Origin: Planomonospora sp. ID67723
GTDB lineage: Bacteria; Actinomycetota; Actinomycetes; Streptosporangiales; Streptosporangiaceae
NCBI RefSeq assembly: GCF_015711605.1
Contig: NZ_JABTEZ010000001.1
Location: forward strand, 896,001 to 960,000
Reading direction: 5' to 3'
DNA: 64,000 nucleotides
A program made the translations under genes and the position numbers. How positions within the stretch are numbered: the first letter of the stretch is position 1; each line of letters starts with the position of its first letter. The notes beneath the pieces are model-generated. The model was not told the DNA's origin. It did no database searches and saw nothing but the letters and a program-made list of their open reading frames with translations. This document shows positions 31,109 to 53,640 of the stretch, in pieces.

Positions 31109-31158
31109 CCACCGGCTCAAGACCACTGTGGATCATTGCCGAATTGTTCTTATGGGTA

Positions 31159-31400
31159 TCAAGGGCGGCGGCGCGTCGCGCCGCCGCCACGGCTCCCGCT
31201 CTGCGGGATCCGTCCGGGCATGCGGCCTGGGGGCCGGTCCCGGCCGGACCCGCCCGCGGGGCCGCCCGCCGTGCGACCGCCGCGCCGTACCCAACTAACT
31301 CGCCGTACCGGGTCCGCACCGCCGCCCATGGGCGAGAGCTTCGACCACCGGCCCCAACCTCTTCGAGGCCCTTCGGGTGCTTCGCATTGGCGCCGGCCGC
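31159..31400. repeat. Hairpin-led repeat element, copy A
   Basis: Starts at TCAAG (31159-31163), followed at once by a perfect 12-bp stem with 1-nt loop (31164-31188). Near-identical to copy B (49816 onward) for about 150 bp and related to copy C (53478 onward) at both ends, including the shared segment GCATTGGCGCCGG. Several further GC-rich short palindromes follow. No credible coding; frames are Arg/Ala/Gly/Pro-rich. Confidence 0.8.
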
Positions 31401-31754
31401 TCGCTCTCTCAGCTCCCGAACCGCGTTGCACCTTCTAGGCCACGAACCAGGTTGCTCCCTCACGATCGCCTGATGACGGCTGATCTCCATACGGGGCTGG
31501 GGGCGATCGACGGTCCGAGGCTTCGTGCCTCAGCCCCGGCCCACCGGAGACCAGCGTGACGCAGACAGCACGCCTTTCCGCTGACTGCCGTTTCCGCACC
31601 ATCCCAGACGTTCGCCTCGTCAACCGATCTCCGTGCGGCCTCCCTCCTGCACGATTGTGACCAGCGGTTAGGCTGAGAGGCAGGCACGGCTCTGGCCCGC
31701 TCACCCCCCTGACCGCTAACGGACCACCGCCAGTAGGCGAGGGGGGAGATCACC
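31401..31754. other. Leader of the GAF gene, conserved with 53650-53966
   Basis: Non-coding stretch that aligns with the region upstream of the second GAF gene nearly throughout. Must contain the promoter; GGGGGGAGATCACC precedes the TTG start. Includes a segment near 31460-31495 that recurs around 57060. Confidence 0.6.
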
Positions 31755-32555
31755 TTGGCAGTCATCCCATGGCCGAGTGACGAGATCGAACGACTGGCCG
31801 AGCTGCACGCCCTGGGCGCGTTGGAGACCTTCCCGCAACCGGACTTCTCCGCCATCGCCGAGCTGGCGGCCCGCACCTGTCAGACACCCATCGGACTGGT
31901 CAATCTGGTCGGCGAGGATCGGCAGTACTTCAAAGGCCACTTCGGCATCGCCGCGACCAGTTGGGGGCACCAGACGTCGTCGTATTGCCCCTATGTCATC
32001 TCCACCCGGGAGCTGCTTGAGGTCCCCGATGCTCTGGCCGACGAGCGTTTCCGTGACGACCCGATCGTGACCCGCGAGCCGCACGCACGGTTCTACGCCG
32101 GTGTGCCCATCATCAGCACCGCCGGTCATGCGCTGGGCGCCATCTGCGTGATGGATCACACCCCGCGCGAGCTCATTCCCGCGCAACGTCGCGCCTTGAC
32201 GACCTTGGCCACCAGCGCCGCCAACCTGCTACAGGCCCAGCATCAGGCCGAGGCACTCAAGCAGTTCCAGGAGATCAGCAAGCGGGAAGTCCGGTTGCTG
32301 CGTCGCGTCACCGGCGACCTGAACGCCCCGCTGAGCACGCTGCGCGCCTACCTGCAACTCATCCACGACGGGCACCTGGACGAGACCACGGCCGGAAGCC
32401 TCGTGCAGACGATCAAGCGTGACAACGGACCCCTGGCGGAATTGATCGACGAGCTGATGCTGCTGGCCAGCCTCAACACCCGCCTGGCCGCATTCACGCA
32501 AAGCGGACAAGAGCGGGCAGGCAACGGACCTACGCAAAAAAGCCCACGCCGCTGA
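31755..32555 (+). CDS. GAF-domain protein with degenerate histidine-kinase DHp region (copy 1)
   Basis: 266 aa, TTG start. GAF domain at about 25-160 of the type found before kinases (SSYCPYVISTRELLEVPDALADERFRDDPIVTREPHARFYAGVPII, GAICVMDHTPREL). A helical hairpin follows with VTGDLNAPLSTLRAYLQLI at 185-203, matching the H-box S-H-E-L-R-T-P-L except that Gly187 replaces the phospho-accepting His. The protein ends without an ATPase domain. It may therefore be a phosphorylation-independent sensor or partner of a kinase. A paralogue lies at 53967. Cargo at the right end of the AICE. Confidence 0.82.
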   Translation: MAVIPWPSDEIERLAELHALGALETFPQPDFSAIAELAARTCQTPIGLVNLVGEDRQYFKGHFGIAATSWGHQTSSYCPYVISTRELLEVPDALADERFRDDPIVTREPHARFYAGVPIISTAGHALGAICVMDHTPRELIPAQRRALTTLATSAANLLQAQHQAEALKQFQEISKREVRLLRRVTGDLNAPLSTLRAYLQLIHDGHLDETTAGSLVQTIKRDNGPLAELIDELMLLASLNTRLAAFTQSGQERAGNGPTQKSPRR

Positions 32556-32575
32556 TGTGAACGGACGGCGTGGGC
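32542..32575 (+). terminator. Hairpin at the end of GAF gene copy 1
   Basis: 10-bp stem (32542-32551 with 32566-32575) that includes the stop codon region. A near copy is at the end of the second GAF gene. Bases 32576-32753 up to attR show no gene. Confidence 0.55.
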
Positions 32576-32753
32576 GAAGCTATCATCGGCCCCGACCGGA
32601 CCGACCTGAGCACAGTCGACCGCTGGTTTTATCTTCAACGGTCTAGCAGTACTGCAACGAGTACTGCAACAGAAGCACACAACCGCTCACATCCACGTCC
32701 GTCCAGCACTGTTCAGGGCCGGGTTGCGGACCCCTGATCACGGCCGGGATGGT

Positions 32754-32798
32754 CCTGATAAGGAAGAGGTCCCAGGTTCAAGTCCTGGTAGCCCCACC
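32754..32798. other. attR of the tRNA-Ile AICE
   Basis: Perfect copy of 22424-22468. It is only the 3' portion of tRNA-Ile and is not a functional tRNA. A short hairpin with AGTGCC/GGCACT follows near 32808-32833. No gene between here and 33045. Confidence 0.93.
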
Positions 32799-33045
32799 CA
32801 GCTCAAATGGCACTTGTCAATTCGGCAAGTGCCTTTTTGACCTTCTAGGTTACTGCGTTTCCCCGTCCTCGCGGGGGAAGATTCGGCCCGCGCCGTCGGA
32901 CCGGCACACGCAAGCCGCCACCCGCCTACCGAACCTGCCGCCACGGGTGTGTGCTGCCGGCCGCCGCCCCGCTTTCGGTGCTCGCGCCTGGCGGCCCTGC
33001 GCCCCGGGTCGCTACGTCCATGAATGGTACGGGCATGATTGCGGT

Positions 33046-33720
33046 GTGGATCGCATGACGTTGTTCCGCCAAGCGGAGGATCTGTTCTTCAAGGGCGACT
33101 TCGAGAAAGCCGAACCGCTGTTGAAGCAGGTGGCCGCGACCGGACACGCCAACGCCGCGAGTCTGCTGGGCACGTTATGCCATGACGTCGGCCGTCGTGA
33201 TGAGGCGATCCACTGGTACCGATCAGCGGCGGAGCAAGACTGGGTGGTCGCCATGGTCAACCTCGCCTTGCTCATCGAGGACGACGACCGTGAGGAGGCG
33301 ATCCGCCTCATGCGTCGCGCAGCCGAAGTCGGTGACACCGTCGAGCCGCACTACAACCTGGGTGTCTTCCTCGAAGAGGACGGGCAGCGGGAGGAGGCGG
33401 AGCGCTGGTACCGGGAGGCCGCCGAACGCGTTTATCCCCAGGCGCGCAACCGGCTGGCCGACCTTCTCAAGCGGACGGGCCGTGAGGCGGAGGCCGAAGC
33501 GTGGTACCGGCGAGCGTTGGACGATCACGGTGGTGATCTGAACGAGCCGAGTGACGAGGACTACCCGGTCTATACGGCGATCATGTTCAACCTCGCTCTT
33601 CTCTTGGCGGAAACTGATCGCTGCGAAGAAGCCCTGTGCTGGTATGAGCGCGTCGCCGAACGAGGAGGCCAGGAAGCAGAGAAGGAGGCGGCACGGCTGC
33701 GAGCGTCACGCCGTGCGTGA
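33046..33720 (+). CDS. TPR/Sel1-like repeat protein
   Basis: About 224 aa from the GTG at 33046 (ATG alternative at 33055). At least five helical repeats of about 34-36 residues: AEDLFFKGDFEKAEPLLKQVAATGHANAASLLG, DEAIHWYRSAAEQDWVVAMVNLALL, EEAIRLMRRAAEVGDTVEPHYNLG, EEAERWYREAAERVYPQARNRLADLL, EAEAWYRRALDD. Soluble protein-interaction scaffold; partner unknown. First gene right of the element. Confidence 0.75.
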   Translation: MDRMTLFRQAEDLFFKGDFEKAEPLLKQVAATGHANAASLLGTLCHDVGRRDEAIHWYRSAAEQDWVVAMVNLALLIEDDDREEAIRLMRRAAEVGDTVEPHYNLGVFLEEDGQREEAERWYREAAERVYPQARNRLADLLKRTGREAEAEAWYRRALDDHGGDLNEPSDEDYPVYTAIMFNLALLLAETDRCEEALCWYERVAERGGQEAEKEAARLRASRRA

Positions 33721-33973
33721 GATCCCTCAGGGGACGTTCACCGCGGTTCTTCTCCGCTGCTTGAGCAGGGAGCCGCAGGGTAGGCGTGGCGGCGCCGTCC
33801 CTCCAGATCCAGGCCGCCACGCCCGCCTACGGAGTGCGGTCCCGGTTCATCGTGATGCGTTGCCAGGGCTGGTGCTCCAGCCGGGTCTCCTCCTCCGGAT
33901 GGTGCGCCAGTTCGGTCAGGTTCGCACCGCAGCGGCATGACCGGACTCCAGCTCGGCAACTGGCCCAAGGCGA

Positions 33974-34588
33974 TCACTGCTCCCTGATCGCTGCTCCCAG
34001 AAACGTCATGTCCAGAACCTCGGGAGAGAAGCCGATGCCCGTGATGATGCTCACCAGGGCGAACGTGCTTGCGATGTGATCATCGGGAGCGGGGTCGTCG
34101 GACGTGCGGCGGCCGAGCCCGACATCACGCATCTGGCTCACCCAGCGGTCGGGATCGCCGCCTGAGCGGAGATGCGGTGCCGAGGGCTCGAAGCGTGTGA
34201 CCACATCACCGTCGACCGCGTGGACGAAGTTGTCCGAGGCGTAGGCGTGCCGGTCGACCGAGACGACTTCGGTCCCTCGCGAGAGGCGGTCCAGCACACC
34301 GGGTTCGAGGGCGACCCTCCAGTCGGAGGGCTCGATGAGCACGGTCCAGCCGTCCACTTCCACGGCGCCGACGTAACCGGCGTAGCTACCGTTCGACTCC
34401 TCCACGTATTCGTACGCGTCGTCCTCCAGCTCCTCGAAGGTCTTCTCCTCGATCGTCTCCACGTCCACGTCGAGACGAGCGAACACCTCGTGGGGGGAGA
34501 GACCCCGGACGAAGGACACGCCGTAGATCTGGCCCAACGGACCGTCCTCCATGGAGAGCCAGCCGAAGCTCCCTCGAATGTCCGACAC
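33974..34588 (-). CDS. DUF6461-like protein
   Basis: 204 aa, GTG after AGGGGAGT. Sequence (FGWLSMEDGPLGQIYGVSFVRGLSPHEVFARLDV, GWTVLIEPSDWRVALEPGVLDRLSRGTEVVSV, VTRFEP) resembles the DUF6461 group of actinomycete proteins of unknown role. Acidic, soluble, no signal. Preceded at 33721-33973 by a 250-bp stretch in which I see no gene. Divergent from the next gene. Confidence 0.65.
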   Translation of the reverse strand: MSDIRGSFGWLSMEDGPLGQIYGVSFVRGLSPHEVFARLDVDVETIEEKTFEELEDDAYEYVEESNGSYAGYVGAVEVDGWTVLIEPSDWRVALEPGVLDRLSRGTEVVSVDRHAYASDNFVHAVDGDVVTRFEPSAPHLRSGGDPDRWVSQMRDVGLGRRTSDDPAPDDHIASTFALVSIITGIGFSPEVLDMTFLGAAIREQ

Positions 34589-34752
34589 CGTGACTCCCCT
34601 CATCGATTGCGGATCATCGTGGCAGGCGTCCCCGACAAAACAGCCGTCGTTCCAGGAGCATAGGGTCCACCTGGGTGATCCCTGCAGCACGCGGACTCAA
34701 GCTGCAGCGGACGCCGCACCGTTCGGACTCACCCGGCAGGGGGCCAGATCAC

Positions 34753-35253
34753 GTGTATGACCGCTGGCGTGCCCGGAAGGCACCTTATGGAGACTTCATC
34801 GTGTTCTCCGACGGCTCTGTGTCGGTGATGAGCCTCATGCGGTTCTCCCCGTACGACCGGCTCCACGACGCGGAGGCAGAGGACTGGCACTGGTGCGAGC
34901 TGCTCCGCGCCACCGCGTGGACCCCCAACGACTGGATGGACGTCGACACGACGCTCGCCTCGTGCACCGATGCCGGAAGCCGCGCCCTGGCCGGCGAGTC
35001 ATCCGACCACGGCAGCATCGGCTGGGTCGCCCTGACCCGGGACGACGACCACCACACCCTCGAATGGCTCGCGGTCTCCTGTGCGTCCAACCCGTTCGCC
35101 GACGTCACCTTGGATGCCACCACGGTGACCGCCACCAGCACCCTGGGCCGTGTCTGGGCCTTCCCCCGTGACGCGCCCCAGCAGGTGAAGATCACCAGGG
35201 ATCCCGCCTACCCCTGGCCCTCGCCGGCTCGGACCTTCGGCCCCGCCGGCTGA
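34753..35253 (+). CDS. Hypothetical protein
   Basis: 166 aa from a GTG at 34753; the frame is open further upstream but overlaps the promoter of the divergent DUF6461 gene. Trp-rich, acidic, globular (DWHWCELLRATAWTPNDWMDV, GSIGWVALTRDDDHHTLEWLAVS, RVWAFPRDAPQQV). No membrane helix or family recognised. Pairing with the divergent DUF6461 gene may be coincidental. Confidence 0.55.
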   Translation: MYDRWRARKAPYGDFIVFSDGSVSVMSLMRFSPYDRLHDAEAEDWHWCELLRATAWTPNDWMDVDTTLASCTDAGSRALAGESSDHGSIGWVALTRDDDHHTLEWLAVSCASNPFADVTLDATTVTATSTLGRVWAFPRDAPQQVKITRDPAYPWPSPARTFGPAG

Positions 35254-35383
35254 AAGCGCGCCGTCACGCTCCGGTGTCTCCCGTCCGCGACAGCCTGAGG
35301 GCCGCCGTCGGCTGAGCCGGGTGGCTGGTGCAGACTGTCGGGGTCGCGGTCGATCGTCGAGGTTCGAGCGGAGTCCTTGGGGG

Positions 35384-36304
35384 ATGTCGGAGGTCGTCGG
35401 GGCTTTCGCCGTACTGGTGGCGGTCGCGGTTCTCGGTTACCTGGCCGGTGTGGGCGGCGCCCTGCGCCCGCAGGACGAGCTGGTCCTCTCCCGGCTGGCC
35501 TTCATGGTCGCCACGCCCGCCCTGCTGTTCACCACGATCGCCGCGGCCGACCTGAGGTCGATCTTCTCGCCGGTGCTCGTGACGAACCTCGCCGGCGTGC
35601 TGTTCGCCCAGACGGTGTTCCTCGTCGTGGGGGGTCTGGTCTGGCGCCGGGAGCGGTCGGAACTGGTCATCGGCACGCTCTCGGCGTCCTACGTCAACGC
35701 GGGGAACCTCGGCATCCCCGTCAGCGTCTACGTGCTCGGCGACGGCGCCCTCATCGCGCCGATCCTGCTGACCCAGCTGCTGGTGATGGCACCGGTCGCG
35801 TTCCTGCTGCTGGACCGGGACACCTCGGGCATGACATCCGTGCGGGAGGTGCTCAGCCGGCCGCTGCGCAACCCGCTCACCGTCGCCACGCTGCTCGGGC
35901 TGGGGGTCGCGCTCACCGGCGTCCGGCTGCCGGTCATGCTCATGCGCCCGATCGAGCTGGTCGGGGCGGCCGCGGTGCCGGTGGCGCTGATCGCGTACGG
36001 CCTCAGCCTGAGCGGCGCCCGGCAGATCGAGGAGGACGGCCACGCCCGTGACGTCGTGCTGGCCGTCGCCCTCAAGTGTTTCGCGCAACCGGGTGTGGCC
36101 TACCTCGTCGGCCGCTTCGCCCTCGGGCTCGACGGCGGGATCCTGTTCGCGGCCACGCTTCTCGCGGCCCTGCCGACCGCGCAGAACATCTACGTCTACG
36201 CGGTGCACTACGGCACGGCCAAGCGGCTCGCCCGCCGTGCCGTACTCATCAGCACCCTGATCTCCATTCCGATGATGACCGCGATCAGCGGTCTGCTCGG
36301 GTGA
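35384..36304 (+). CDS. AEC-family (auxin efflux carrier-like) transporter
   Basis: 306 aa. Ten predicted membrane helices, starting VVGAFAVLVAVAVLGYLAGVGG. SASYVNAGNLGIPVSVYVLGDGAL is the conserved Asn/Gly-rich crossover motif of the N-terminal half, and LAALPTAQNIYVYAVHYG that of the C-terminal half. Exports or imports small carboxylates/amino acids in characterised relatives; substrate here unknown. ATG follows TTGGGGG. Confidence 0.88.
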   Translation: MSEVVGAFAVLVAVAVLGYLAGVGGALRPQDELVLSRLAFMVATPALLFTTIAAADLRSIFSPVLVTNLAGVLFAQTVFLVVGGLVWRRERSELVIGTLSASYVNAGNLGIPVSVYVLGDGALIAPILLTQLLVMAPVAFLLLDRDTSGMTSVREVLSRPLRNPLTVATLLGLGVALTGVRLPVMLMRPIELVGAAAVPVALIAYGLSLSGARQIEEDGHARDVVLAVALKCFAQPGVAYLVGRFALGLDGGILFAATLLAALPTAQNIYVYAVHYGTAKRLARRAVLISTLISIPMMTAISGLLG

Positions 36305-36407
36305 GGACCGGTTCTGCTCCCGGAACGCTCTCATCGTCCAGATGGCTGCGATCTCCGTTCCTGCGGAGTCGCGATCCGGCCCCCCGACCGCTTCGGGACC
36401 ATCACGG

Positions 36408-36479
36408 TCGGCCCGGCGGGGTTCGAACCTGCGACGCCCGGTTGGTAGGACCGGCGCTCTTCCGCTGAGCTACAGGCCG
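36408..36479 (-). tRNA. tRNA-Val-like (TAC), atypical
   Basis: Acceptor CGGCCTG pairs with CGGGCCG (one U-G), D-arm normal, anticodon stem CCGGT/ACCGG with loop CCTACCA, giving anticodon TAC but C instead of T at position 33. The T-stem has an A-C mismatch and the tRNA begins with C. Likely degraded or of specialised use. Last member of the array. Confidence 0.65.
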
Positions 36480-36538
36480 TCCGGCGGACCACGCCGGATC
36501 GAGGGGTGAGGTCGGGCTCGGACCTTCCCGAGCCGTCG

Positions 36539-36613
36539 TGCCGCCCCCGGGACTCGAACCCGGAACCTCCGCGTCCTGAGCGCGGCGCCTCTGCCTGATT
36601 GGGCCAGAGCGGC
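36539..36613 (-). tRNA. tRNA-Leu (CAG) without long variable arm
   Basis: Acceptor GCCGCTC/GGGCGGC, anticodon stem CCGCG/CGCGG with loop CTCAGGA (anticodon CAG), T-stem CCGGG/CCCGG, discriminator A. The variable loop is only AGGTT. Bacterial leucine tRNAs are normally class II with a long variable arm, so this is structurally unusual. Confidence 0.8.
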
Positions 36614-36614
36614 G

Positions 36615-36686
36615 AGTGGGTGACGAGACTCGAACCCGTCCTCCGACCTTGGCACGGTCGTGTGCTTCCGCTGACACTTCACCCAC
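36615..36686 (-). tRNA. tRNA-Gly (GCC)
   Basis: Acceptor GTGGGTG/CACCCAC, anticodon loop GTGCCAA, T-arm ACGGG-TTCGAGT-CTCGT with one G-T pair, discriminator T. Only one base separates it from tRNA-Leu. Confidence 0.88.
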
Positions 36687-36696
36687 GGGTGCGTGG

Positions 36697-36768
36697 CTGC
36701 CGGAGAAGGAATCGAACCTCCGTTTCCCGATCCAGAGTCGGATGTCCTGCCGATTGGACGATCCGGCA
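36697..36768 (-). tRNA. tRNA-Gln (CTG)
   Basis: Acceptor TGCCGGA/TCCGGCA, anticodon loop CTCTGGA, T-loop TTCGATT, discriminator G, which agrees with glutamine identity. The next 144 bases (36769-36912) contain no further tRNA that I can fold. Confidence 0.88.
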
Positions 36769-36912
36769 TCACGCCGCTCGCGCTGGGCACGCGAGTCGTG
36801 CGTCCGATCCGGGTGGCGTGAGCCGTACGGACGCGAACGGGCCGTGAACCGGGCGGGGGTCGCCACTCCCGTCGCCGAGTACGTGACCCGATGCCCTCTT
36901 CTTTCAGGGCAG

Positions 36913-36984
36913 AGCCGCAGCGGGGACTCGAACCCCGTCCTGCTGGGTGGAAGCCAGCCGCCTTACCGGTTCGGCTTCTGCGGC
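36913..36984 (-). tRNA. tRNA-Gly (TCC)
   Basis: Acceptor GCCGCAG/CTGCGGC, anticodon stem GCTGG/CCAGC with loop CTTCCAC, T-arm CGGGG-TTCGAGT-CCCCG, discriminator T. Confidence 0.9.
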
Positions 36985-36998
36985 GTGGGCACCTCCGG

Positions 36999-37072
36999 TC
37001 CGAGTGGCAGGATTCGAACCTGCGACGTTCTGCTCCCAAGGCAGACGGGCTGCCAAACTGCCCCACACTCGG
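36999..37072 (-). tRNA. tRNA-Pro (TGG)
   Basis: Acceptor CCGAGTG/CACTCGG, anticodon stem TCTGC/GCAGA with loop CTTGGGA, T-arm GCAGG-TTCGAAT-CCTGC, discriminator A. Starts with C, normal for proline. Confidence 0.9.
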
Positions 37073-37112
37073 GAAGGTCGCGCGGCTCGGCCGCCGCGCG
37101 TGAGGTGCCTCG

Positions 37113-37183
37113 TGGACGGACAGGGAATCGAACCCTGAACTCCTGCTTGCAAGGCAGGCGTGATCCCGTTTCACCATCAGCCC
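37113..37183 (-). tRNA. tRNA-Ala (TGC)
   Basis: First in transcription order. Acceptor GGGCTGA/TCCGTCC has one T-C mismatch but keeps the G3-U70 pair that defines alanine tRNAs. Anticodon stem CCTGC/GCAGG with loop CTTGCAA. Differs strongly from the normal tRNA-Ala(TGC) at 49180. Confidence 0.85.
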
Positions 37184-38008
37184 GAGGAAGTGCTCGTCGC
37201 GGCCCGCTCCGACGCCGGGGCGGCCCACGGGCCCTGCCGCGCCTCCGCCGCCGATGCGGCGCAGGCCCGCCGCGGTCGCGGCGGGAAAGGCAGCTCTCCA
37301 AAACGCTTTTCGTTCGCTGTGGAATTGTCAAGTTCGCGTACCCGGCCCTTTCGCACGCAGGCGTGAAGAATTATCCGCGTGAATGGCGGGGCCGGATCCT
37401 CATGCGCCGGTTTTCCCTATCGGAGCCGTCGGCGACGCACACCCGTGTCGACTGCCTCCGCTCCCGGATTCGCCGCAGAACGACGAAGCCGCCCGTCGGG
37501 GGCTTCCCGGGGCGGCTTCCGTGCAGGGAGTGCTTACACGGATGCCCCGGGAGGAGCGAGCCCGCCGCCGGGGACGCACGGCAGAAGCGGCTCGTGCCGC
37601 TGCGGCACGATGGCCTCATATGCGTTCATGGGCGGTCCTTATGGTCGGTCGGCTGGTCTCTGTATTTCAAGAGTAAGTTATCCCCGCCGGGACGCCAAGT
37701 GATTTTTTCCGGTAAACCGTTCCGCCCTGCGCCGGTCGTGAGGAGGCGGTTTCCAATTCGCCCGCCCGCGTCATGGAATCAGTTCCGACCGATGGGCGGC
37801 GTCATTCGACCGGCATGCCGGTCGCCGGCCGAATCGTGCGACGGCGGGCTCGGGAGGCGACGGTGAGACCGCCCTGCGGGGTACGGCCGACGGCGTCGGT
37901 CTCGCCGGCCCGGCGCGGGGTCCGGGAGGGCCGCCGCTCCCCACTCTCCGTAAGGAGTCGATCACTCGTGGATATGGTGGAGGGTGGCGACACACCTCAG
38001 GAGTGATG
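37184..38008. other. 825-bp region upstream of the tRNA array and histidine kinase
   Basis: No supportable gene: frames are Arg/Pro/Ser-rich. Contains a 10-bp inverted repeat (37485-37494 with 37510-37519) and a relatively A/T-richer patch around 37310-37380 that could hold the leftward tRNA-array promoter. The rightward kinase promoter must lie in the last ~200 bp. Confidence 0.5.
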
Positions 38009-39208: not shown

Positions 39209-39550
39209 AGGGGGACACCAGCCACCCGGCCCGCTGAGGGCTCCGCTGGATCTCCGGTCGAACGATCGTCTCGGCCGGTTTCTCGAATCTTGACGCGGGC
39301 GGTGCACTCGGCCAGGCCGGGTCCGGGTATCCCAACCTCCGGTTGAGCAGGTACGGCCGTCCCGCCATGACGCCGGCAGAGCCGCCCGGAGCAACCGGGC
39401 GGGGCTCCAGGGACAGGGCGTGGCCGCCGGCCGGAACAACACGCCGGCGGAGACCCGCCGACACACCGGATCCCGCCGTCCCCTCCGTCGTCCCGCCTCC
39501 GGCGGTGCCGTCGCGGTGGTCACCCACAGCGACCAGGAGAGAGAACGGAC
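39209..39550. other. Intergenic region between histidine kinase and glycosyltransferase
   Basis: 342 bp; nothing recognisable beyond the AGGAGAGAG ribosome-binding site near 39535 for the small upstream reading frame. Confidence 0.4.
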
Positions 39551-39604
39551 ATGACGACCTCCATGACGACCGCCCGGCGGTGCGGCCCGGGCGGACCCCG
39601 ATGA
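39551..39604 (+). CDS. 17-residue upstream reading frame (possible leader peptide)
   Basis: MTTSMTTARRCGPGGPR, preceded by AGGAGAGAG at a good distance, while the following glycosyltransferase gene has no clear ribosome-binding site of its own. Its stop overlaps the next ATG (ATGA), suggesting translational coupling. Too short to judge by composition. Confidence 0.4.
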   Translation: MTTSMTTARRCGPGGPR

Positions 39605-41079: not shown

Positions 41080-41084
41080 TCGGA

Positions 41085-41134: not shown

Positions 41135-41145
41135 GGAGGCGGTGC

Positions 41146-45289: not shown

Positions 45290-45405
45290 GGGCACGGGTG
45301 CATTCCATGCCATCTCGGGCCTGAGCCGTACCCGGAAGTTTCCTGTGAGCATGTCGGTGCGCACACCCAGTGAACTGCCAGGAAAGCGGGGTAGCGTGCC
45401 TCGGC

Positions 45406-46293: not shown

Positions 46294-47447
46294 AGATCCG
46301 TTACATGCTCCTGCACGCCTACGGCATGGGCGGGACGATCCGGACAGTGATCAACCAGGCCGGGGCGATGGCGGAGGCGGGACACGACGTCGAGATCATC
46401 AGCGTGGTACGGCGCCGCAGGCAGCCGAGGTTCGACGTCGATCCGCGCGTCAGGCTCACCGCCCTGGTGGACCAGCGCAGGGGGGCGACGGCGGACTCTG
46501 TCGCGCGCAAGGCGTGGCGCAGGGTACGCGGGCGCATCGTCCCCCGGGGGGAGCCCGCCGCCGGCTACTTCACCGAACGGGTGGAGAAGGCCGTCATCGA
46601 CTGCGTCTCCGCGCTGGACGACGGGGTCCTGGTGACCACGCGTCCCGCGCTGAACCTCATCTCCGCCCGCCGTACCCCCCGGAGCGTGGTACGGGTGGCC
46701 CAGGAGCACATGAACCTGGGCACCCACCGCGAGCCCGTCCGGCGGCAGATCGCCCGCCACTACGGGAAGCTGGACGCGGTCGTCGTGCTCACCGGCACCG
46801 ACCGCGCCGACTACCAGCGCCTGCTGCCCGACACCCCCGTCGTGCGGATCCCCAACGCGGTCGGCACCCTCGGCAGGCGCCTGTCCTCCCACGACAACCG
46901 GGTCGTGGCCGCCGCGGGCCGGCTGGTGGCGCAGAAGGGCTTCGACCTGCTCATCCCGGCGTTCGGGAAGGTCGTGCGCGAGCACCGGGACTGGCGGCTG
47001 CGGATCTACGGCACCGGCCAGAAGCAGGACGAGCTGCACGCGCTGATCGAGGAGCACGGACTCCGGGAGAACGTCGCGCTCATGGGCCAGAGCGACCGGC
47101 TGGGAGAGGAACTGGCGCAGGCCTCGCTGTACGCGCTCAGCTCCCGGTTCGAGGGCCTGCCCATGGTGATGATCGAGGCCATGTCCCACGCCCTTCCGGT
47201 CGTGGCCTTCGACTGCCCGACCGGCCCGGCCGACGTGCTGACCCACGGGATCGACGGGCTGCTCGTCCCACCCGGCGACGTCGACGCGTTCGCCGAGGCC
47301 CTCGGCCGCCTCGTCGCCGACCGGGAACTGCGCGGGCGGATGGGGGCTGCGGCCCTGGAGACCGTGCGGGGGTACGCCCCGGACCGGGTGATGCCGATGT
47401 GGGAAAGGCTGTTCGCCGGGCTGATGTCCGGGCAGCGGGAGATCTGA
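46290..47447 (+). CDS. Glycosyltransferase family 4 (GT-B fold)
   Basis: 385 aa. N-terminal GMGGTIRTVINQAGAMAEAGHDVEIISV donor-fold start and C-terminal GT4 motif RFEGLPMVMIEAMSHALPVVAFDCPTGPADVLTHGIDGLLV with the conserved E(x7)E. AGRLVAQKGFDLLI begins the nucleotide-sugar domain. Retaining transferase that probably makes a surface polysaccharide or glycolipid, modified by the coupled sulfotransferase. Confidence 0.9.
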   Translation: MKIRYMLLHAYGMGGTIRTVINQAGAMAEAGHDVEIISVVRRRRQPRFDVDPRVRLTALVDQRRGATADSVARKAWRRVRGRIVPRGEPAAGYFTERVEKAVIDCVSALDDGVLVTTRPALNLISARRTPRSVVRVAQEHMNLGTHREPVRRQIARHYGKLDAVVVLTGTDRADYQRLLPDTPVVRIPNAVGTLGRRLSSHDNRVVAAAGRLVAQKGFDLLIPAFGKVVREHRDWRLRIYGTGQKQDELHALIEEHGLRENVALMGQSDRLGEELAQASLYALSSRFEGLPMVMIEAMSHALPVVAFDCPTGPADVLTHGIDGLLVPPGDVDAFAEALGRLVADRELRGRMGAAALETVRGYAPDRVMPMWERLFAGLMSGQREI

Positions 47448-47542
47448 GCCGATCTGCGGCGATCCGGTCGCCGGGTTGGTCCGGGAATGAACGGCGTGCA
47501 CGATCGGCTGATCTGGACAGCCGGTGACAGGAGGAGACCGCG

Positions 47543-47827
47543 ATGACCGTAGAGGTCACGGCCGTGCCCGAGAAGAACCTCTTCGAGGCCGAGGTGGACG
47601 GTGAGCACGCAGGCCAGATCGAGTTCGTCCGGAGGGACGGCGTGATCGTCTATACCCACACCGAGGTGGACGGCCCGTTCGAGGGCAGGGGGATCGGCGG
47701 CCTGCTCGTCCGCACGGCCCTGGACGCGGCGCGGGCCGAAGGAGTGAAGGTGGTCCCCCGCTGCTCGTTCGTGAAGTCCTGGATCGACGGCCATCCCGAG
47801 TACGCCGACCTGGTCGGCGGAGCCTGA
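47543..47827 (+). CDS. Small GNAT-like acetyltransferase (YjdJ type)
   Basis: 94 aa. FEAEVDGEHAGQIEFVRRDGVIVYTHTEVDGPFEGRGIGGLLVRTALDAARAEGVKVVPRCSFVKSWIDGHPEY matches the compact one-domain GNAT group (GRGIGGLL as the CoA loop, ending in H-PEY). AGGAGG upstream fixes the ATG. Substrate unknown. Confidence 0.88.
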   Translation: MTVEVTAVPEKNLFEAEVDGEHAGQIEFVRRDGVIVYTHTEVDGPFEGRGIGGLLVRTALDAARAEGVKVVPRCSFVKSWIDGHPEYADLVGGA

Positions 47828-48172
47828 TCGAACCGGCCCGAGCCGGACGGAACGGGTGGACGCGCCGGCCGCGACGGCGCCGGAACACGGGTGGAGCCTG
47901 ATGTCCGCCCACCGGCACCCGTACGCCGGTGGGGACTGGGCCGTCTGGGGAACGAGGACGGGTTCGAGGTCGAGCTCATGGCTGATCGTGATCATGTGGA
48001 AGCGAACTGTGCGGAGTAGTGACGAAAATCACGGGGTAAACTCGGATTCGCCACTCTCGGATTACGCGCATACCGGGCCATCGTTCGATCCCTTGCTAGG
48101 CTGCAAGGAACCGTTGGAACCGGGCGTTGTCTCACCCCGGCAGGTGAGACCGTCGAGAAGTGGGGTCACACC
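47828..48172. other. Intergenic region before DLW-39
   Basis: 345 bp; no supportable gene. Presumably the promoter region of the DLW-39 gene; a short CCTTGC/GCAAGG symmetry lies near 48093-48111. Confidence 0.4.
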
Positions 48173-48292
48173 GTGAAGAAGCTGCTCGTTCTGGCGCTTG
48201 TCGCTCTTGGGGGGCTGCTGGTCTGGCGCAAGGTCCAGGCCGACCGCGCCGAGCTCGATCTCTGGACCGAGGCGACCGGCAGCGAGAACTGA
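48173..48292 (+). CDS. DLW-39 family small protein
   Basis: 39 aa, GTG start: begins KKLLVLALVALGGLLVWRKV after the initiator and ends ELDLWTEATGSEN. One N-terminal membrane helix, basic middle, acidic C-terminus containing the name-giving DLW. The exact family length of 39 is kept. DLW-39 genes usually lie close to gyrA, tRNA-Ile and tRNA-Ala in actinobacteria; here the AICE and about 15 kb separate it from tRNA-Ile, while tRNA-Ala follows 0.9 kb later. Function unknown. Confidence 0.9.
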   Translation: MKKLLVLALVALGGLLVWRKVQADRAELDLWTEATGSEN

Positions 48293-48347
48293 TCAACGCG
48301 GGTCCACCGACCGAGGTGCCCGCATGATCCTTAGCAAGGTTGGGGGA

Positions 48348-49064
48348 ATGACACCCATCAAGCTTGCCTGTCTGGATCTGGCAGGCACCACGATCGGTGA
48401 CGTCGCCATGGTCGAACGGGCGTTCGCCGAGGCGATCGCCACGCAGGGCATCGTGCCCGGGACCGGAGCTTACGCGCGTGCCATGGTGCACGTGCACCGG
48501 TCCCGGGGCTGCCCCAAGATCGATGTCTTCCGGGGCATCTTCCCCGACAACGAGGCCCAGGCCCAAGCGGCCAACCTGACCTTCGAGCGCTCCTACGAGG
48601 GCGTGATCGAGCGGTCCGGGCTGCTCCCGTTGCCGGGGACCGTCGAGGCGCTGGACAAGCTCCGCGGCGCCGACGTGAAGATCTGCCTCGTCACCGGCTT
48701 CAGCCGCTCCACCCTCGGCCGGGTCCTGGCCGCCCTGAGCTGGTCCGACAAGATCGACCTCGCCCTGTGCCCGGAGGACGCGGGTCGTGGCCGCCCCATG
48801 CCGGACATGATCCTCACCGCGGTCCTGCGGCTGGGCATCGAGGACGTCCGCCAGGTCGCGGTCGCCGGCGACTCGGAGAGCGACATGCTCTGCGGCCGCC
48901 GTGCCGGAGCCTCGGTGGTGGCCGGAGTCCTGACCGGCGTCCACAGCCGCGACCGTCTGCTCAACGGCGGCGCCACCCACATCCTGGAGTCCATCGCCGA
49001 CTTCCCCGCCCTCGTCCTCGGCAGCGACCAGGTGGGTTCCCCGGTCTCCGCCTCCGCCCGCTGA
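48348..49064 (+). CDS. HAD-superfamily hydrolase, phosphonatase-like
   Basis: 238 aa. Motif I LACLDLAGTTIGD with the nucleophile Asp (D-L-A rather than D-x-D), motif II VTGFSR, motif III Lys region around GRGRPMPDM, motif IV VAVAGDSESDMLCGRRAGASVVAGVLTG. The DLAGTT start resembles phosphonoacetaldehyde hydrolase-like HAD proteins. A longer start at 48324 is possible. Substrate unknown. Confidence 0.82.
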   Translation: MTPIKLACLDLAGTTIGDVAMVERAFAEAIATQGIVPGTGAYARAMVHVHRSRGCPKIDVFRGIFPDNEAQAQAANLTFERSYEGVIERSGLLPLPGTVEALDKLRGADVKICLVTGFSRSTLGRVLAALSWSDKIDLALCPEDAGRGRPMPDMILTAVLRLGIEDVRQVAVAGDSESDMLCGRRAGASVVAGVLTGVHSRDRLLNGGATHILESIADFPALVLGSDQVGSPVSASAR

Positions 49065-49179
49065 CCGCTGCCGGAGACGGCGCCGCCCGAACCGAGTGGC
49101 GAGAAGGCACGGGCTGTTGCTACGGTGTACGACTGAAGCACGCCGTACCGCATCGTTGCAGGCCGTCGGCGTGGATCTC

Positions 49180-49255
49180 GGGGCCTTAGCTCAGTTGGCA
49201 GAGCGCCTGCTTTGCAAGCAGGATGTCAGGAGTTCGAATCTCCTAGGCTCCACCA
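49180..49255 (+). tRNA. tRNA-Ala (TGC) with encoded CCA
   Basis: Acceptor GGGGCCT/AGGCTCC with the G3-U70 alanine identity pair, anticodon loop TTTGCAA, T-loop TTCGAAT, discriminator A, CCA encoded at 49253-49255. Its 3' half is an attachment site: similar 40-bp copies occur at 53050 and 61470. Confidence 0.97.
49215..49254. other. Attachment core in tRNA-Ala (island left end)
   Basis: The 40 bases from the anticodon loop to the CC of CCA match 53050-53089 in 37 positions and 61470-61509 in 34. Confidence 0.8.
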
Positions 49256-49270
49256 CCTCTACGACATGAA

Positions 49271-49308
49271 AAAGCCCAGGTCAGGCATGGTCGCCTCGCC
49301 TGGGCTTT
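49271..49308. terminator. Terminator between tRNA-Ala and integrase remnant
   Basis: 10-bp stem AAAGCCCAGG/CCTGGGCTTT (49271-49280 with 49299-49308), works in both directions. Confidence 0.75.
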
Positions 49309-49313
49309 GATCT

Positions 49314-49815
49314 TCATTCGGCCTCGTCCGGCTCCCGTGCCCGTTGCGTGCCCGATCGCTCCCCAAGTGCCCCACGGGCGAGGTCGTCGAGCTTGCGGGC
49401 GACCTCCCGTTGCCGCTCGTCCGTCGAGTGCTGATAGATCATCGCGGCGCGCGTGCTGGAGTGGCCCATGCGCTCCATCAGCTCCCGGATCGACGCTCCG
49501 GCGCTCGCGGCGAGGGTGTTGCCGGTGTGCCGCAGGTCGTGAAAGTGGATCTTCGGAAGGCCCGTGTCCTGGAGCGCCTGCGTCCAGACGCGACGGTTGA
49601 AGTTGGTGTTGCGGAGCGGCCCGTCATCCGGCCCCGCGAAGATCAGACCCTTGTCCCCGCCCTGGGTGAAGTCCTTCACGTGCTCCCGCAGGTCCTCGAT
49701 GATCAGCTCGGGGATCACCACCGTCCGCCTGCCTGCCGCGGACTTGGGTTCGGTGAAGACGAGCCCCTTGCCGGTGATCTGCATCAACTGGCGTTCCACC
49801 CGTACGGTTCCGGCG
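49314..49815 (-). pseudogene. 5'-truncated tyrosine integrase (island 1)
   Basis: About 167 codons of the catalytic domain's C-terminal part remain: GKGLVFTEPKSAAGRRTV, HFHDLRHTGNTLAASAGASIRELMERMGHSSTRAAMIYQHST. HxxR, second His and Tyr are intact, but the first catalytic Arg, the core-binding and arm-binding domains are missing. Homology stops at CTTGA (complement of TCAAG at 49816-49820), where repeat copy B begins. Not functional as a recombinase alone. Confidence 0.88.
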
Positions 49816-50062
49816 TCAAGGGCGGCGGCGCGTCGCGCCGCCGCCACGGCTCCCCCTCTGCGGGATCCGTCCGGGCATGCGGCCTGGGGGCCGGTCCCGG
49901 CCGGACCCGCCCGCGGGGCCGCCCGCCGTACGACCGCCGCGCCGTACCCAACCAACTCGCCGCACCGAGGTCCGCACCGCCGCCCGGAAGGTCGCTTCGA
50001 CCACCGGCCCCGACCGCTACGCGGCGCTTACGGCGTCCTTCGGATCGGCGCCGGCCGCTCCG
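49816..50062. repeat. Hairpin-led repeat element, copy B
   Basis: Begins TCAAG (49816-49820) and the same 12-bp/1-nt-loop hairpin (49821-49845) as copy A, with near identity for about 150 bp. It replaces the 5' part of the integrase. The remaining bases to 50115 are unique. Confidence 0.8.
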
Positions 50063-50115
50063 CTTCCGGTCGGAGATCTATTGCCCCGGAACCCTTTGTC
50101 CTACGATCAACCGCC

Positions 50116-50406
50116 ATGACGACGTCCCTGAAGGACCGCCTCAAATTCCTTCCCATGACAGCTTGGATCTTCCCGACCATCAGCAGCTTCCTGCTGGTCT
50201 CCAACTTCCCCGACGAAGACGCGCCAGTTACCGCACAAACACTGTTCATGATTGCGATGGCAGTCGTCGTCACACTCGGGGGAGTCATCGCGGTCCTCTC
50301 TGGGATCATGTCTGCACTTGTCGCGCGGCTTGACGAGGGAAAAGACGCCTCCGGCGGGGGCGCTCGGCTCCGGGATGATCGTCCGAACGAGCCCGTAGAA
50401 CTGTAA
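50116..50406 (+). CDS. Small two-helix membrane protein, unknown function
   Basis: 96 aa. Two hydrophobic stretches (PMTAWIFPTISSFLLVS and TLFMIAMAVVVTLGGVIAVLSGIMSALV) separated by an acidic loop, with a charged, Gly/Arg-rich tail. Less GC-rich than its surroundings, consistent with transfer. No family recognised. No clear ribosome-binding site. Confidence 0.6.
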   Translation: MTTSLKDRLKFLPMTAWIFPTISSFLLVSNFPDEDAPVTAQTLFMIAMAVVVTLGGVIAVLSGIMSALVARLDEGKDASGGGARLRDDRPNEPVEL

Positions 50407-50809
50407 GGGCTGAGGTGGGGCCTGATCGTCCCGCCTGCCACGTCCCAGGCAGAGCCCAGCAGCCCGACTCCTCCGGCTCAAGCCCGTCTGTGCCCGTTGG
50501 CATCCAATGACCGAGGAACGGCGACCGGTGAACGGACACGCCAAGACGGGCTTGATCCTCCGTCGTCGGCCCGCTGCCCTTCGGGTGGGACGAGGCAGAC
50601 GGGAAGATCAGGCAGGGGAGGAATGTGCGGGTTCCCGCCGGGTGGATCTGTGCCCGCTGCGTGCCCGTTAGGACGGTCACCCACGGGGAATCACACGGGA
50701 CCACGGAGAACGCGATCAGCCGCGTGACCAGCGCCGCAGCAGGTCACACGATCCCGTACCGCAGTCTTCCAAACTGGTGATCCGATGTTGGGGCCGGTAC
50801 CGTGCCCAG
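50407..50809. other. Gene-free stretch in island 1
   Basis: About 400 bp with only Arg/Pro/Gly-rich frames; no element recognised. Confidence 0.4.
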
Positions 50810-51361
50810 GTGCTCACCATCCGGATGAACGAGGCGGCGGCATCCGCGCTGCAACCGCTGGCAGCCGTCGATCCGCCACCCACCGTTCCCGCTCTCAGCC
50901 AGGAGCTCCGCGACAAACTCGCCTCGGGACTCACCTGCAACGAGGGCGCCTGGATATTCACCGAGCACGTCGGCCAATGGGTGGGCGCGCCGGCTTCCGC
51001 TTCGGCGGCGATCACCAAGATGGGCTGGCAGGACCTATCCGGCTACGAGTGGAACGTCAACGCCTTCCATCTGGAGGACTACGCGCCGGTACAGGTGACG
51101 GACCTCGATGGGCAGCCGCAGATCAGCCGTGACGATCAGGTCCTGTTGCTCCGACTCGGCATGGTCGTCGCCGACAGCGTGTTCGACCTCATCCGAGCAT
51201 TGTCGGAGCCGGTTCCCGTCCGATGCGTTATCGGCGGTGCGTCCGACACCTGTGTCGTGTTCCGCTTTCACCAGATCCGCTCCGGGGACGAGTGGATCGA
51301 CGATGTCCTGAGGAAGCCGGACGACCCGGACATGATGGTCGTCATCGACCGCCATCCCTGA
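50810..51361 (+). CDS. Hypothetical protein
   Basis: 183 aa from a GTG at 50810; starts at 50777 or 50825 are possible. Acidic and globular (ALSQELRDKLASGLTCNEGAWIFTEHVGQWVGAP, VLLLRLGMVVADSVFDLIRAL, CVVFRFHQIRSGDEWIDDVL). No signal, helix or known motif. General character resembles small immunity-type proteins, which is only an impression. Confidence 0.55.
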   Translation: MLTIRMNEAAASALQPLAAVDPPPTVPALSQELRDKLASGLTCNEGAWIFTEHVGQWVGAPASASAAITKMGWQDLSGYEWNVNAFHLEDYAPVQVTDLDGQPQISRDDQVLLLRLGMVVADSVFDLIRALSEPVPVRCVIGGASDTCVVFRFHQIRSGDEWIDDVLRKPDDPDMMVVIDRHP

Positions 51362-51672
51362 ACGTGCTCGTTATGCGCTGTAGGCGGGTTTCTCAGTGGG
51401 CCGCTGTTGCCGAGTACGGTCCGGTGGAGGGAACAGCACCGATCCGGTTTCAGGAGCCATCTTGGGAGCCGCCCGAACGGACGATCACGAACCGAGTCGG
51501 GCGGATCTGAACGGCCGGAGTCTGGGCGAGCAGCAGGACGAACGGGTCTGAATGATCCTGGAGGCCGTTCGGGGACCTATGGATCAGAAGGCCCAGACCC
51601 CACCGTTCGCATGCCGGTACAGACTGCTGGATCTGTGCATCGGTTCCCTCGTGACCCTCTTGGCAAGCGTCA
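51362..51672. other. Gene-free stretch between convergent island genes
   Basis: 311 bp, nothing recognised. Confidence 0.4.
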
Positions 51673-52035
51673 TTACCAGGAACCTATGGGCTCCACGGTG
51701 AGGTCTTCGGGGTGGGGAAGCGGAGCTGGCTCGTCTTCGGTGGCGTAGACCTCCAGATACGAGAGGTGCCCGTCTTCGACGAAAAGCAGTACGCCGTCAC
51801 CGCGTGTTCGTGTGTGGGCGGAGACGAGCACGCCGTCCTGTACGGGGGCCTCGAGAGCGGGAGGTTCTGATCCCGGACGGAGATCCACGGTCGCGCATCC
51901 GCACCCGCAGCGTCCGACAACGACCGCCGAAGAGACCTGAGCCCGAAGCTCTTGTGCGCCGGGGAAGTCCTGCGTGAGCAACGCCAGAATGACAGCCTGC
52001 TCCTCGGCCGATAGGTGACGCTCGCCGTCTGACAC
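51673..52035 (-). CDS. Conserved hypothetical protein with CGCGC motif
   Basis: 120 aa from GTG. SAEEQAVILALLTQDFPGAQELRAQVSSAVVVGRCGCGCATVDL, then VLLFVEDGHLSYLEVYATEDEPAPLPHPEDL. The Cys-Gly-Cys-Gly-Cys stretch may bind metal. I recognise this as a pattern recurring in actinomycete hypothetical proteins but cannot name a function. No strong ribosome-binding site. Confidence 0.6.
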   Translation of the reverse strand: MSDGERHLSAEEQAVILALLTQDFPGAQELRAQVSSAVVVGRCGCGCATVDLRPGSEPPALEAPVQDGVLVSAHTRTRGDGVLLFVEDGHLSYLEVYATEDEPAPLPHPEDLTVEPIGSW

Positions 52036-52385
52036 ATCACCAAGGTAACGGGCCGGGCGTGGGATATGTGCGGGATGATCTTTGGTGGGTGAGGGCCGAC
52101 GAAGGCTTCTGCCCTGGTCAGCGCAGGCGTTGTCGCTCGGAACGTAGTCTTCTTGGAAACCGCTGCTTTGACTGTGAGGACCGGCCGTTGCTATGAGGTG
52201 GATGGGTCGTCTGTGCCGGCTTCCGCCAAGCAGAGCCGCCTGCACCGGTCGTCCAGTCGGTAGATGACCTCGTCGTTCGGCGGAATCGGTATCAGGTGTT
52301 CTTTCGCGGGGCGGCTTCGCCCCCTAGCTTGTCCGTCAGGCTTGACGCCGGCTTTGTCTCTCACTACCTGAACAGGACCGTTCAC
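52036..52385. other. Divergent intergenic region in island 1
   Basis: 350 bp between divergent hypothetical genes; must hold both promoters. No motif found. Confidence 0.4.
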
Positions 52386-52901
52386 ATGGGTCTCTTCTTC
52401 GAGTACTACCGCGCTGCCGATCGTGAGGCGGCACTCGTCCGGCCGGAGGCCTCGCGTGCGATCGAAGAACCCCATGGGGTTTCCGGCTTCGACGTGGTCG
52501 AGGCCAAGTGGATCGACACGTGGGGGACCTTGAACAAGCTCGTGGCGATCATCGCTGATGCCGACCTCTCCACAAAGCTGGTCACCACGGTGGCGCTGTA
52601 TCCCTCGTATCCCTCCCCGGCGCCGCAGAGCGACGAGGAGTGGGACGCCCTGCCGGATGACTCGCCCTACCTGAGCAGCGTGGGCATCGAAGAGCTGTCG
52701 GTGAACGTGCGTGACCTGCTCGCCGGCGCGGATGATGCACGGCTGCCGATGCTGGTGGAGCGTTGGGCGAAGATCGAGGAGTTCTCGGCCTTCAGCTCGG
52801 TCGACATGGAGTATCTGAGGTCCGTGGCTGAGGATCTTGTCGGGTTGTCCCGTCGTGCGAGGGAACACGGTCAACAGCTCTACTGCTGGTCGTGTGCCTG
52901 A
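52386..52901 (+). CDS. Hypothetical protein
   Basis: 171 aa, ATG (MGLFFEYYRAADREAALVRP). Acidic, with SGFDVVEAKWIDTWGTLNKLVAIIADAD and EWDALPDDSPYLSSVGIEELSVNVRDLLAGADDARLPMLVERWAKIEEF, ending LYCWSCA. Soluble, no motif. Resembles stand-alone actinomycete proteins of unknown role. Confidence 0.6.
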   Translation: MGLFFEYYRAADREAALVRPEASRAIEEPHGVSGFDVVEAKWIDTWGTLNKLVAIIADADLSTKLVTTVALYPSYPSPAPQSDEEWDALPDDSPYLSSVGIEELSVNVRDLLAGADDARLPMLVERWAKIEEFSAFSSVDMEYLRSVAEDLVGLSRRAREHGQQLYCWSCA

Positions 52902-53049
52902 CCGGGACCGCCGCCGAGCAGGCCGGCCAGGGTGACCGCCGGGCCATTGGCGGGCCATTAAGGGCGGTCAACAGCGGTCAGTCATGGTCACTCGCGGGGA
53001 GCCCTCCGCCCGGCTCGCGGCCCGTACGGCCTGCGATCGGACCGATTTT

Positions 53050-53089
53050 CAAGCAGGATCTCAGGAGTTCGAGCCTCCTAGGCTCCACC
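53050..53089. other. Second tRNA-Ala attachment-like repeat
   Basis: 37 of 40 bases match the tRNA-Ala core (49215-49254). The bases that follow, to about 53140, also resemble those after the third copy at 61510. Confidence 0.78.
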
Positions 53090-53146
53090 TGCGGAGACAC
53101 TCTCTCCCCGATCATGAAAACGGGGCCTGAGTGACTAACTGGGTGA

Positions 53147-53477
53147 CTAAGCCTCCAGGGCCTTTCCGAAGATCCCGTCCATCGCCGTCGCGCCCTCCCC
53201 CAGGACGGGCCGGATCTGGCTGCGACAGACCGTCTCCGTCACCACCGTGTTGGCATGGCCCACCGGGCGGGAGATGTGCTCGATGGGAACGCCGGAGTCC
53301 GACAGCAGGGACACGAAGCTGTGCCGCATCTCCTTGGGCGTCCACTCGGTCTCGGCGAGTCCGGCCTTCTTGACGACCTTCCGGAAGTCGCGCCGCACGT
53401 TACCGGCGCTCAACGCGGTCCCGTTCTTCGTGCAGAACACCAGCCGTGCGGTGGCCCCGCTGGGATCGTCGAGCTGA
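53147..53477 (-). pseudogene. 5'-truncated tyrosine integrase (island 2), catalytic Tyr lost
   Basis: About 109 codons remain: LVFCTKNGTALSAGNVRRDFRKVVKKAGLAE, WTPKEMRHSFVSLLSDSGVPIEHISRPVGHANTVVTETVCRSQIRPVL. The nucleophile position after VTETV is Cys (TGT at 53225-53227) where relatives have Tyr, and everything before LDQLDD is missing. Belongs to a different integrase subgroup from island 1. Homology ends at CTTGA, the start of repeat copy C. Confidence 0.87.
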
Positions 53478-53640
53478 TCAAGGGCGGCGGCGCTTCGCGC
53501 CGCCCCGCCGCACCGAACAGCCACCGCACCGAGCGAACGCGCCGGCCGGGGCGCGCTGCCGCCCGCCGCTCGACCACCGGCCCCAACCGCTTCGCGGCCC
53601 TTCGGGTGCTTCGCATTGGCGCCGGTCGCTCGCTCTCTCA
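53478..53640. repeat. Hairpin-led repeat element, copy C
   Basis: TCAAG (53478-53482), then an 8-bp stem with 3-nt loop (53486-53504), diverged in the middle, rejoining copy A at CGACCACCGGCCCCAACC and GCATTGGCGCCGG. From there alignment with 31345-32575 continues through the whole GAF gene. Confidence 0.75.

Follow-up and report, generated by a model that had tools for sequence, protein, structure and literature searches.

In a 64,000-nucleotide stretch of the Planomonospora sp. ID67723 genome (contig NZ_JABTEZ010000001.1, positions 896,001 to 960,000; hereafter the window), a non-coding repeat that begins with TCAAG occurs in three copies, A (31159), B (49816) and C (53478). Based on sequence comparisons, we suggest that the repeat, in the form of copy A, is probably the rolling-circle double-strand origin (dso) of a family of RepSA-type actinomycete integrative and conjugative elements (AICEs) in soil actinobacteria. 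Copies B and C lack the conserved sequence to the left of the origin, and look like deletion scars that arose within one AICE. We therefore consider it likely that the repeat is the dso of RepSA, and that B, C and 26 further junctions in this genome and its relatives are scars of RepSA cutting and joining at the origin and at a look-alike site.

A conserved repeat with the features of a rolling-circle origin

As read from the sequence, all three copies start with TCAAG and carry a GC hairpin directly next to it. Copies A and B are 91% identical (31159-31402 and 49816-50060), and the edge of their alignment is the T of TCAAG, while C matches A over the first 28 nt and then over 1.28 kb at 87% identity from about 31341/53570. 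A scan gave the hairpin of A and B a 12-bp stem with a 1-nt loop (31164..31188 in A, where it adjoins the putative nick site and was also found by folding); in C an 8-bp stem is readable by eye and DNA folding gives 7 bp. The origin-derived part of B (49816..50060, plus strand) holds the hairpin side only, without the left flank, and that of C (53478..53667, plus strand) lacks, by alignment, a second stem that is present in A and B. To the left of B and C lie C-terminal pieces of tyrosine integrases (Int; PF00589, E 4e-13 and 1e-10, respectively), and their reading frames are open up to the junction. These observations bear out a preliminary description of the window, made from the sequence alone, which had reported three copies beginning at TCAAG beside a GC hairpin, with these stem sizes, and two of them abutting an integrase gene cut at that point.

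A chance origin of the repeat is untenable, because related copies are present elsewhere in the genome. Copy A, used as a query, matched nine places in its own genome apart from its own palindrome. TCAAG stands at the edge in six of them (A, B, C, 1609283, 1514744 and 1510597), and 1614973 reads TCAAA. Two matches speak against a boundary that is fixed at every copy: 501644 has no TCAAG and 1509803 contains downstream sequence only. The left flank TTGCCGAATTGTTCTTntnnGnA is common to A and the copies at 1609283, 1614973 and 1514744 (contig G000:C1), while B, C and 1510597 carry Int fragments in its place. It also precedes many copies in relatives, with the core TGCCGAATT. The upstream flanks had been called unrelated, which is true among A, B and C, but the flank of A recurs before other copies. 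In copy A, this conserved left flank of the intact origin spans 31136..31158 (plus strand), as delimited by its recurrence and a pattern scan, and is a candidate Rep-binding part.

The repeat is widespread. A 141-base query from the 1609283 copy, with at most two candidates scored per genome, matched 212 of 341 family genomes at E<=1e-5. Among the matches listed, most start at or before query position 14, a group starts at 34-35, which is the position of TCAAG, and a few start later, for example at 53. Allowing one mismatch, the left-flank pattern was found in 34 of 61 genomes of the order (57 of the 61 belonging to the same family), and the reversed pattern gave 0 matches. Carriers known by name comprise at least Nonomuraea, Actinomadura, Planomonospora, Micromonospora and Actinoplanes. 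A pattern search of 120 genomes found 46 places in 24 genomes, and among 30 loci returned 17 were intact and 13 other. When the base after CTTG was left free, a scan of the collected loci yielded 157 non-redundant copies, 137 with the left flank and 20 without; as the scans required CAAG plus a hairpin and named loci were fetched by the left-flank pattern, this ratio is not a frequency. RepSA itself is present in 291 of the 341 family genomes.

On the minus strand, the boundary reads hairpin-CTTG^A. The published sequence of the pC194 origin, TATTAT^CAAGATAAG (also given as TATTAT^CAAGATAAGAAAGA), has the complement CTTG^ATAATA (PMC5037232), and the CTTG^AT found here agrees with it. The base after CTTG on the presumably nicked strand is A in 157/157 scanned copies, CAAG being a requirement of the scan and only the +1 base being free; the TCAAA copy of this genome stands apart from this pC194-type motif. 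Based on this motif, the edge of the A-B alignment and the breakpoints described below, we place the nick of copy A in CTTG^A at 31159..31163 (minus strand), where the cut would fall between 31160 and 31159. Passages of a published account (PMC3218068) report that RepSA nicks a dso and credit a pC194-like nick site in pSAM2 to te Poele et al.; they also report rolling-circle replication by RepSA for pSAM2-type AICEs.

Copy A lies in AICE1, a complete RepSA-type AICE in a tRNA-Ile gene (22424..32798), which is bounded by a 45-bp attachment (att) repeat (22424-22468 and 32754-32798). The element encodes Int, Xis, RepSA, a TraB-like FtsK protein, a GntR regulator, an NsdA-family regulator and a GAF/HisKA protein. 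Its tyrosine integrase is intact (22533..23714, minus strand; PF00589, E 7.6e-24), the rolling-circle initiator RepSA is 571 aa long (23893..25608, minus strand; PF20199, E 5e-100), and the TraB-like FtsK/SpoIIIE DNA translocase (25814..27262, minus strand; PF01580, E 5e-9) matches the FtsK/SpoIIIE model above its cut-off and the TraB model weakly, below its cut-off. AICE1 is thus a RepSA-type AICE, as the initiator, the translocase and Int are all present between att repeats in a tRNA gene. The RepSA sequence contains PHLHM and YLSKY, which we take to be the HUH-like motif and the two-tyrosine motif; no PDB entry related to RepSA was found by sequence search.

As in pC194-type origins, the repeat lies on a replicon that encodes a rolling-circle initiator in AICE1 and in the circular RepSA plasmid pMR2, and in most of the 20-kb loci RepSA or TraB is present (around 9 of 12 intact copies). 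The arrangement is also conserved. In loci of at least 7 kb, the RepSA or TraB gene lies to the left of the copy and on the minus strand in 42 of 46 match pairs, and the 4 discordant pairs come from two loci that both also have a concordant origin. In pMR2 (RepSA at 47% identity by tblastn), a single left-flank match with 2 mismatches was found, against 0 in 200 shuffles; it is intergenic, on the strand opposite to int-xis-rep-ftsK, and the order of the circle fits AICE1. A perfect stem beside the nick site is found in 108 of 132 intact copies, with 33 different 5' arms (counts made with no shuffle control). Folding is better than that of shuffled sequence in A (z -3.7, 31159-31280), B (-2.6) and pMR2 (-4.2), and not in C (-0.1). 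The second stem region of copy A, 31190..31265, was recognised by its fold z and by a core, GCATGCGGCCTGGGGGCCGGTC, that is conserved in the alignment. Because this region lies upstream of the nick, in the manner of the single-strand origin described in PMC5037232, we speculate that it may serve as a single-strand origin.

Two side features accompany the copies. A second conserved module of the GGGGCGATCGACGGTCCGAGGCTTCGTGCCTCAGCCCCGG type lies at 31500-31539 and at about 53716-53755; it occurs at 43 places in the examined loci (overlapping loci unmerged) at variable distances from the origin, and is perhaps a promoter or small-RNA module. Related genes for cargo proteins with GAF/HisKA domains (31755-32555 and 53967-54758) occupy equivalent positions to the right of copies A and C.

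Junctions between the putative origin and int or rep genes

We collected 30 junctions from this genome and its relatives at which the hairpin side of the repeat abuts other sequence. Two of these (L054 and L099) lie behind plus-strand genes, like copy A, and have faintly similar flanks; they are probably decayed intact copies and were dropped, leaving 28. Neither has an alignable relative, so that the counts of 23 alignable junctions and 22 distinct sites given below are unchanged. Three other loci were not counted as junctions, namely L103 (no TCAAG), L061 (damaged hairpin) and L090 (a degenerate but recognisable left flank). At L060 (near G001:C1:635216) and L061 (near G153:C49:4101), the hairpin palindrome itself is partly lost beside the junction.

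The partner of the repeat is Int in 23 of the 28 junctions (16 identified by Pfam or tblastn, with one Pfam score slightly short of the cut-off, and 7 by alignment or reading), RepSA in 4 (L081 by Pfam; L078, L101 and L116 by alignment or reading) and an unknown gene in 1 (L074); TraB was not identified as a partner in any of the 28. The surroundings of 20 of the 30 junctions, including L099, L054 and L074, were covered by 18 regions with a length of 19.9 kb at most. Of these 20 junctions, 13 abut a partial Int, mainly its C-terminal part, and 6 have a tRNA gene or tRNA-like att site no more than 1 kb away towards Int (Gly, Ala, Met and Val; Ala at B and C). From -6 to +10 kb around the 20 junctions, several regions being shorter than this, no RepSA or TraB was among the matches listed, and within the examined regions the missing 5' part of int was not listed beyond the repeat. 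Individual regions vary: in L283, the region of junction L116, an almost complete Int is present and the cut lies upstream of it; L286 has an additional Int piece 3.8 kb away on the att side; and L298, which holds L054, has no feature among the matches listed. When loci were gathered by Int protein similarity, 6 of 60 were junction loci, one of them the query itself.

The second breakpoint is most clearly seen at L059 of genome G001, where the remnant of Int shares 98% identity with the intact Int found in the window. The sequence is GGCACTCG^ATCCGC in the intact gene, GCCGCTCTTG^ATCCGC in the scar and GCCGCCCTTG^ATACCC in the intact origin, such that the breakpoint is GCTCTTG^ATCCGC in the scar versus CACTCG^ATCCGC in the window int. 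The coding strand of the latter contains one CTCGA, at the codon 101/102 boundary where L059 is cut, three CTGGA and no CTTGA. An alignable intact relative was available for 23 of the 30 junctions; its sequence at the breakpoint is CTNG^A for 16 of them, 12 of these being CTYG^A, and the same counts are obtained over the 22 distinct sites. Before an A in the same genes, CTYG and CTNG are expected at 2.1% and 3.5%, respectively (binomial p 6e-15 for CTYG; indicative, because independence of the sites is assumed and the nearest relative stands in for the parent). Over the 22 sites, C is found at -4 in 18, T at -3 in 19, C at -2 in 15, G at -1 in 18 and A at +1 in 20. As the scars keep the T of the origin at -2 though most partners have C, the exchange would fall between -2 and +1, with CAAG having been required in most scans.

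Copy B is part of a 3.9-kb deletion derivative in a tRNA-Ala gene (49211..53089), bounded by a 44-nt direct repeat of 91% identity. Its order is att (49211-49254), Int remnant, junction, origin remainder, cargo and att (53046-53089). The C-terminal Int remnant (49314..49815, minus strand; PF00589) is cut at CTTG^A, and its nearest intact relative (L181, 78%) reads CTCG^A at the breakpoint. The derivative also contains a 70-nt inverted repeat (50420-50613; 76% complementary, 54-nt spacer). Copy C follows the second att copy of derivative B; its C-terminal Int remnant (53147..53477, minus strand; PF00589, E 1e-10) lies beside att 53046-53089 and is likewise cut at CTTG^A, and a search for an alignable intact relative of this remnant found none. 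Elsewhere in the window, seven tRNA genes (Val, Leu, Gly, Gln, Gly, Pro and Ala; minus strand) lie within 0.8 kb at 36406-37183.

Alternative explanations for the repeat and its junctions

The closest alternative is that RepSA merely nicks the origin and that host end-joining or repair of a collapsed fork makes the joint through about 5 bp of microhomology. The CTNGA shared by partner sites and origin has a length typical of microhomology. We nevertheless regard this explanation as unlikely, as only 2 of 22 partner sites match the CTTG of the origin exactly, position -2, a T in the origin, is C in 15 of 22 and the scars keep T (CAAG was required by most scans, and not by the BLAST search), and similarity to the origin upstream of -4 is low, with a mean of 2.0 of 6 from -10 to -5. 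Partner sites were also considered as full pseudo-origins; this was rejected, as a test with a position weight matrix showed no overall enrichment (p below 0.05 in 4 of the 24 rows).

The preliminary description favoured a non-autonomous element of the IS200/IS605 type, and a non-autonomous HUH transposon, whether of this or the IS91/ISCR-like type, that inserts beside CAAG/CTTG would account for a terminal hairpin, a fixed tetranucleotide and several copies. RepSA, moreover, carries what we assume to be a two-tyrosine HUH-like motif, and the IS91 transposase is described as having two conserved tyrosines. We give this explanation almost no credence. It had been suggested that a common right end would be a sign of mobility, yet comparison of the genomic copies, including the A/B/C alignment, revealed none; with no second fixed end, and with the 5' part of int not listed on the far side of the repeat within the examined regions, the IS200/IS605 assignment was rejected. 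Intact copies furthermore have conserved sequence across the boundary, and the boundary carries a rolling-circle nick motif instead. In IS91/ISCR elements, the ori end abuts CTTG/GTTC at varied genomic targets and the element has its own transposase. Here 27 of 28 partners are AICE-type int or rep, and no IS91 transposase was found among the window proteins scanned, which led us to reject this type as well.

A structured, conserved, non-coding repeat on an AICE encoding a TraB-like protein could also be the transfer locus (clt) recognised by TraB, or a regulatory RNA, and a structured RNA element had been raised in the preliminary description. We find either very improbable, as breaking and joining at one base with a nick-like motif is not expected from translocation of double-stranded DNA or from an RNA. 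The RNA reading was rejected because a scan of the window with Rfam gave no match at the repeats, only tRNA reaching the gathering score, and because the RNAalifold consensus of 40 copies has only 3 pairs. What stands of the earlier view is a pentanucleotide boundary with an adjoining hairpin, the cut integrase genes and the notion of a process acting on single-stranded DNA; the proposed kind of element is not supported.

Several observations weigh against a RepSA origin and RepSA-made scars, beginning with this three-pair consensus. The hairpin adjoining the nick is only 4 bp in pMR2. Three of the 12 intact copies have no RepSA or TraB in their 20-kb surroundings, a match to RepSA or TraB accompanies 31 of the 134 intact positions in loci of 7 kb or more, most of which are 8 kb long, and genomes G209 and G211 have the repeat (E 3e-16 and 3e-19) without a RepSA match. 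At the second breakpoint, 6 of the 22 distinct sites lack CTNG^A in the nearest relative. The misses are L057 (GGCC), L060/L207 (ATCT), L066/L058b (CTCC, with CTCG in other relatives), L205 (ATCA) and the poorly aligned L078 and L105. Seven of the 30 junctions, copy C among them, have no alignable relative. C occupies +2 in 15 of the 22 sites, which is unexplained, perhaps reflecting codon use, and other positions show no strong preference. Partner sites are generally unlike the left flank of the origin (rank p<0.05 in 4 of 24). The exact edge on the origin side is partly by construction, as most scans required CAAG plus a hairpin, and several junction regions are cut by contig ends (for example, L290 after 1.2 kb on the left and L294 after 0.7 kb on the right). 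Finally, the search for a reciprocal junction gave none: the hairpin is absent beside 6 of 176 left flanks, counted without de-duplication, and none of the 6 is convincing. The missing reciprocal junction is expected for a lost circle, but is also uninformative.

A proposed route from AICE to fixed cargo island

Rolling-circle initiators nick the dso and stay on the 5' end, and at termination they cleave the regenerated site and join the ends. Strand-transfer steps of this kind are treated in passages of PMC5703833. We propose that RepSA starts rolling-circle replication of the excised AICE circle at a dso made up of the left flank, CTTG^A, the hairpin and the following stem. In B, C and the 26 further junctions, RepSA, which we infer to be the enzyme, would have cut the origin at CTTG^A and also a look-alike, usually CTNG^A, in int or repSA on the same strand, presumably the one carrying CTTG^A, and would have joined the 3' end of the origin (hairpin-CTTG) to the 5' A of the second site. 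If the look-alike in int is cleaved during a round and the true site afterwards, two circles may result. The DNA between the sites (5' int, xis, rep and tra) would be lost as a circle that has the left flank of the origin, rep and tra, and no att. The other circle would bear att and keep 3' int, the origin remainder and the cargo; it alone would be able to remain in a tRNA locus, Int coming from another copy. The same scar would result if the cut and join took place in situ. The remnant would then be fixed in the tRNA gene, unable to excise, because it has no working integrase. The predominance of Int as partner could be explained in the same way, since an element cut in tra or rep can still be excised and one cut in int is fixed.

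The repeat resembles a pC194/pUB110-type dso in its CTTG^A nick core (PMC5037232) and in the adjoining single-strand structure, and differs in its conserved left flank TTGCCGAATT..., its adjoining GC hairpin, its RepSA initiator and its setting in actinobacterial AICEs. With pSAM2-type AICEs, AICE1 shares RepSA (PF20199), a TraB-like FtsK protein, Int/Xis and tRNA att sites. Decayed AICEs with a partial integrase, cargo and two direct repeats are described in passages of PMC9513070, and this end product is like B and the other scars; those passages speak of deletion and recombination and name no site, whereas here a nick motif is found at both breakpoints. Among the titles listed in a literature search, largely without subscription literature, no paper on origin-mediated AICE decay was found. 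Deletions at the rolling-circle origins of pC194 and M13 are reportedly known from work of Michel and Ehrlich in 1986, with one endpoint at the origin nick site. The scars described here differ in that sequence specificity extends to the second endpoint (mostly CTNG^A), and in being natural chromosomal fossils.

Overall, these data point to a probable replication origin, recognisable by a simple signature, for a widespread family of AICEs, and offer a specific and testable mechanism for the "decayed AICE" remnants in tRNA loci. The natural scars would also show, without recourse to biochemistry, how specific a rolling-circle initiator is for its second site. More tentatively, and at somewhat less than even odds in our judgement, we suggest that RepSA acts as a sequence-guided recombinase of the origin with CTNG^A in int, such that AICEs regularly become int-less, permanently fixed cargo islands through aberrant termination of rolling-circle replication, possibly a main route for the domestication of AICE cargo in actinobacteria.

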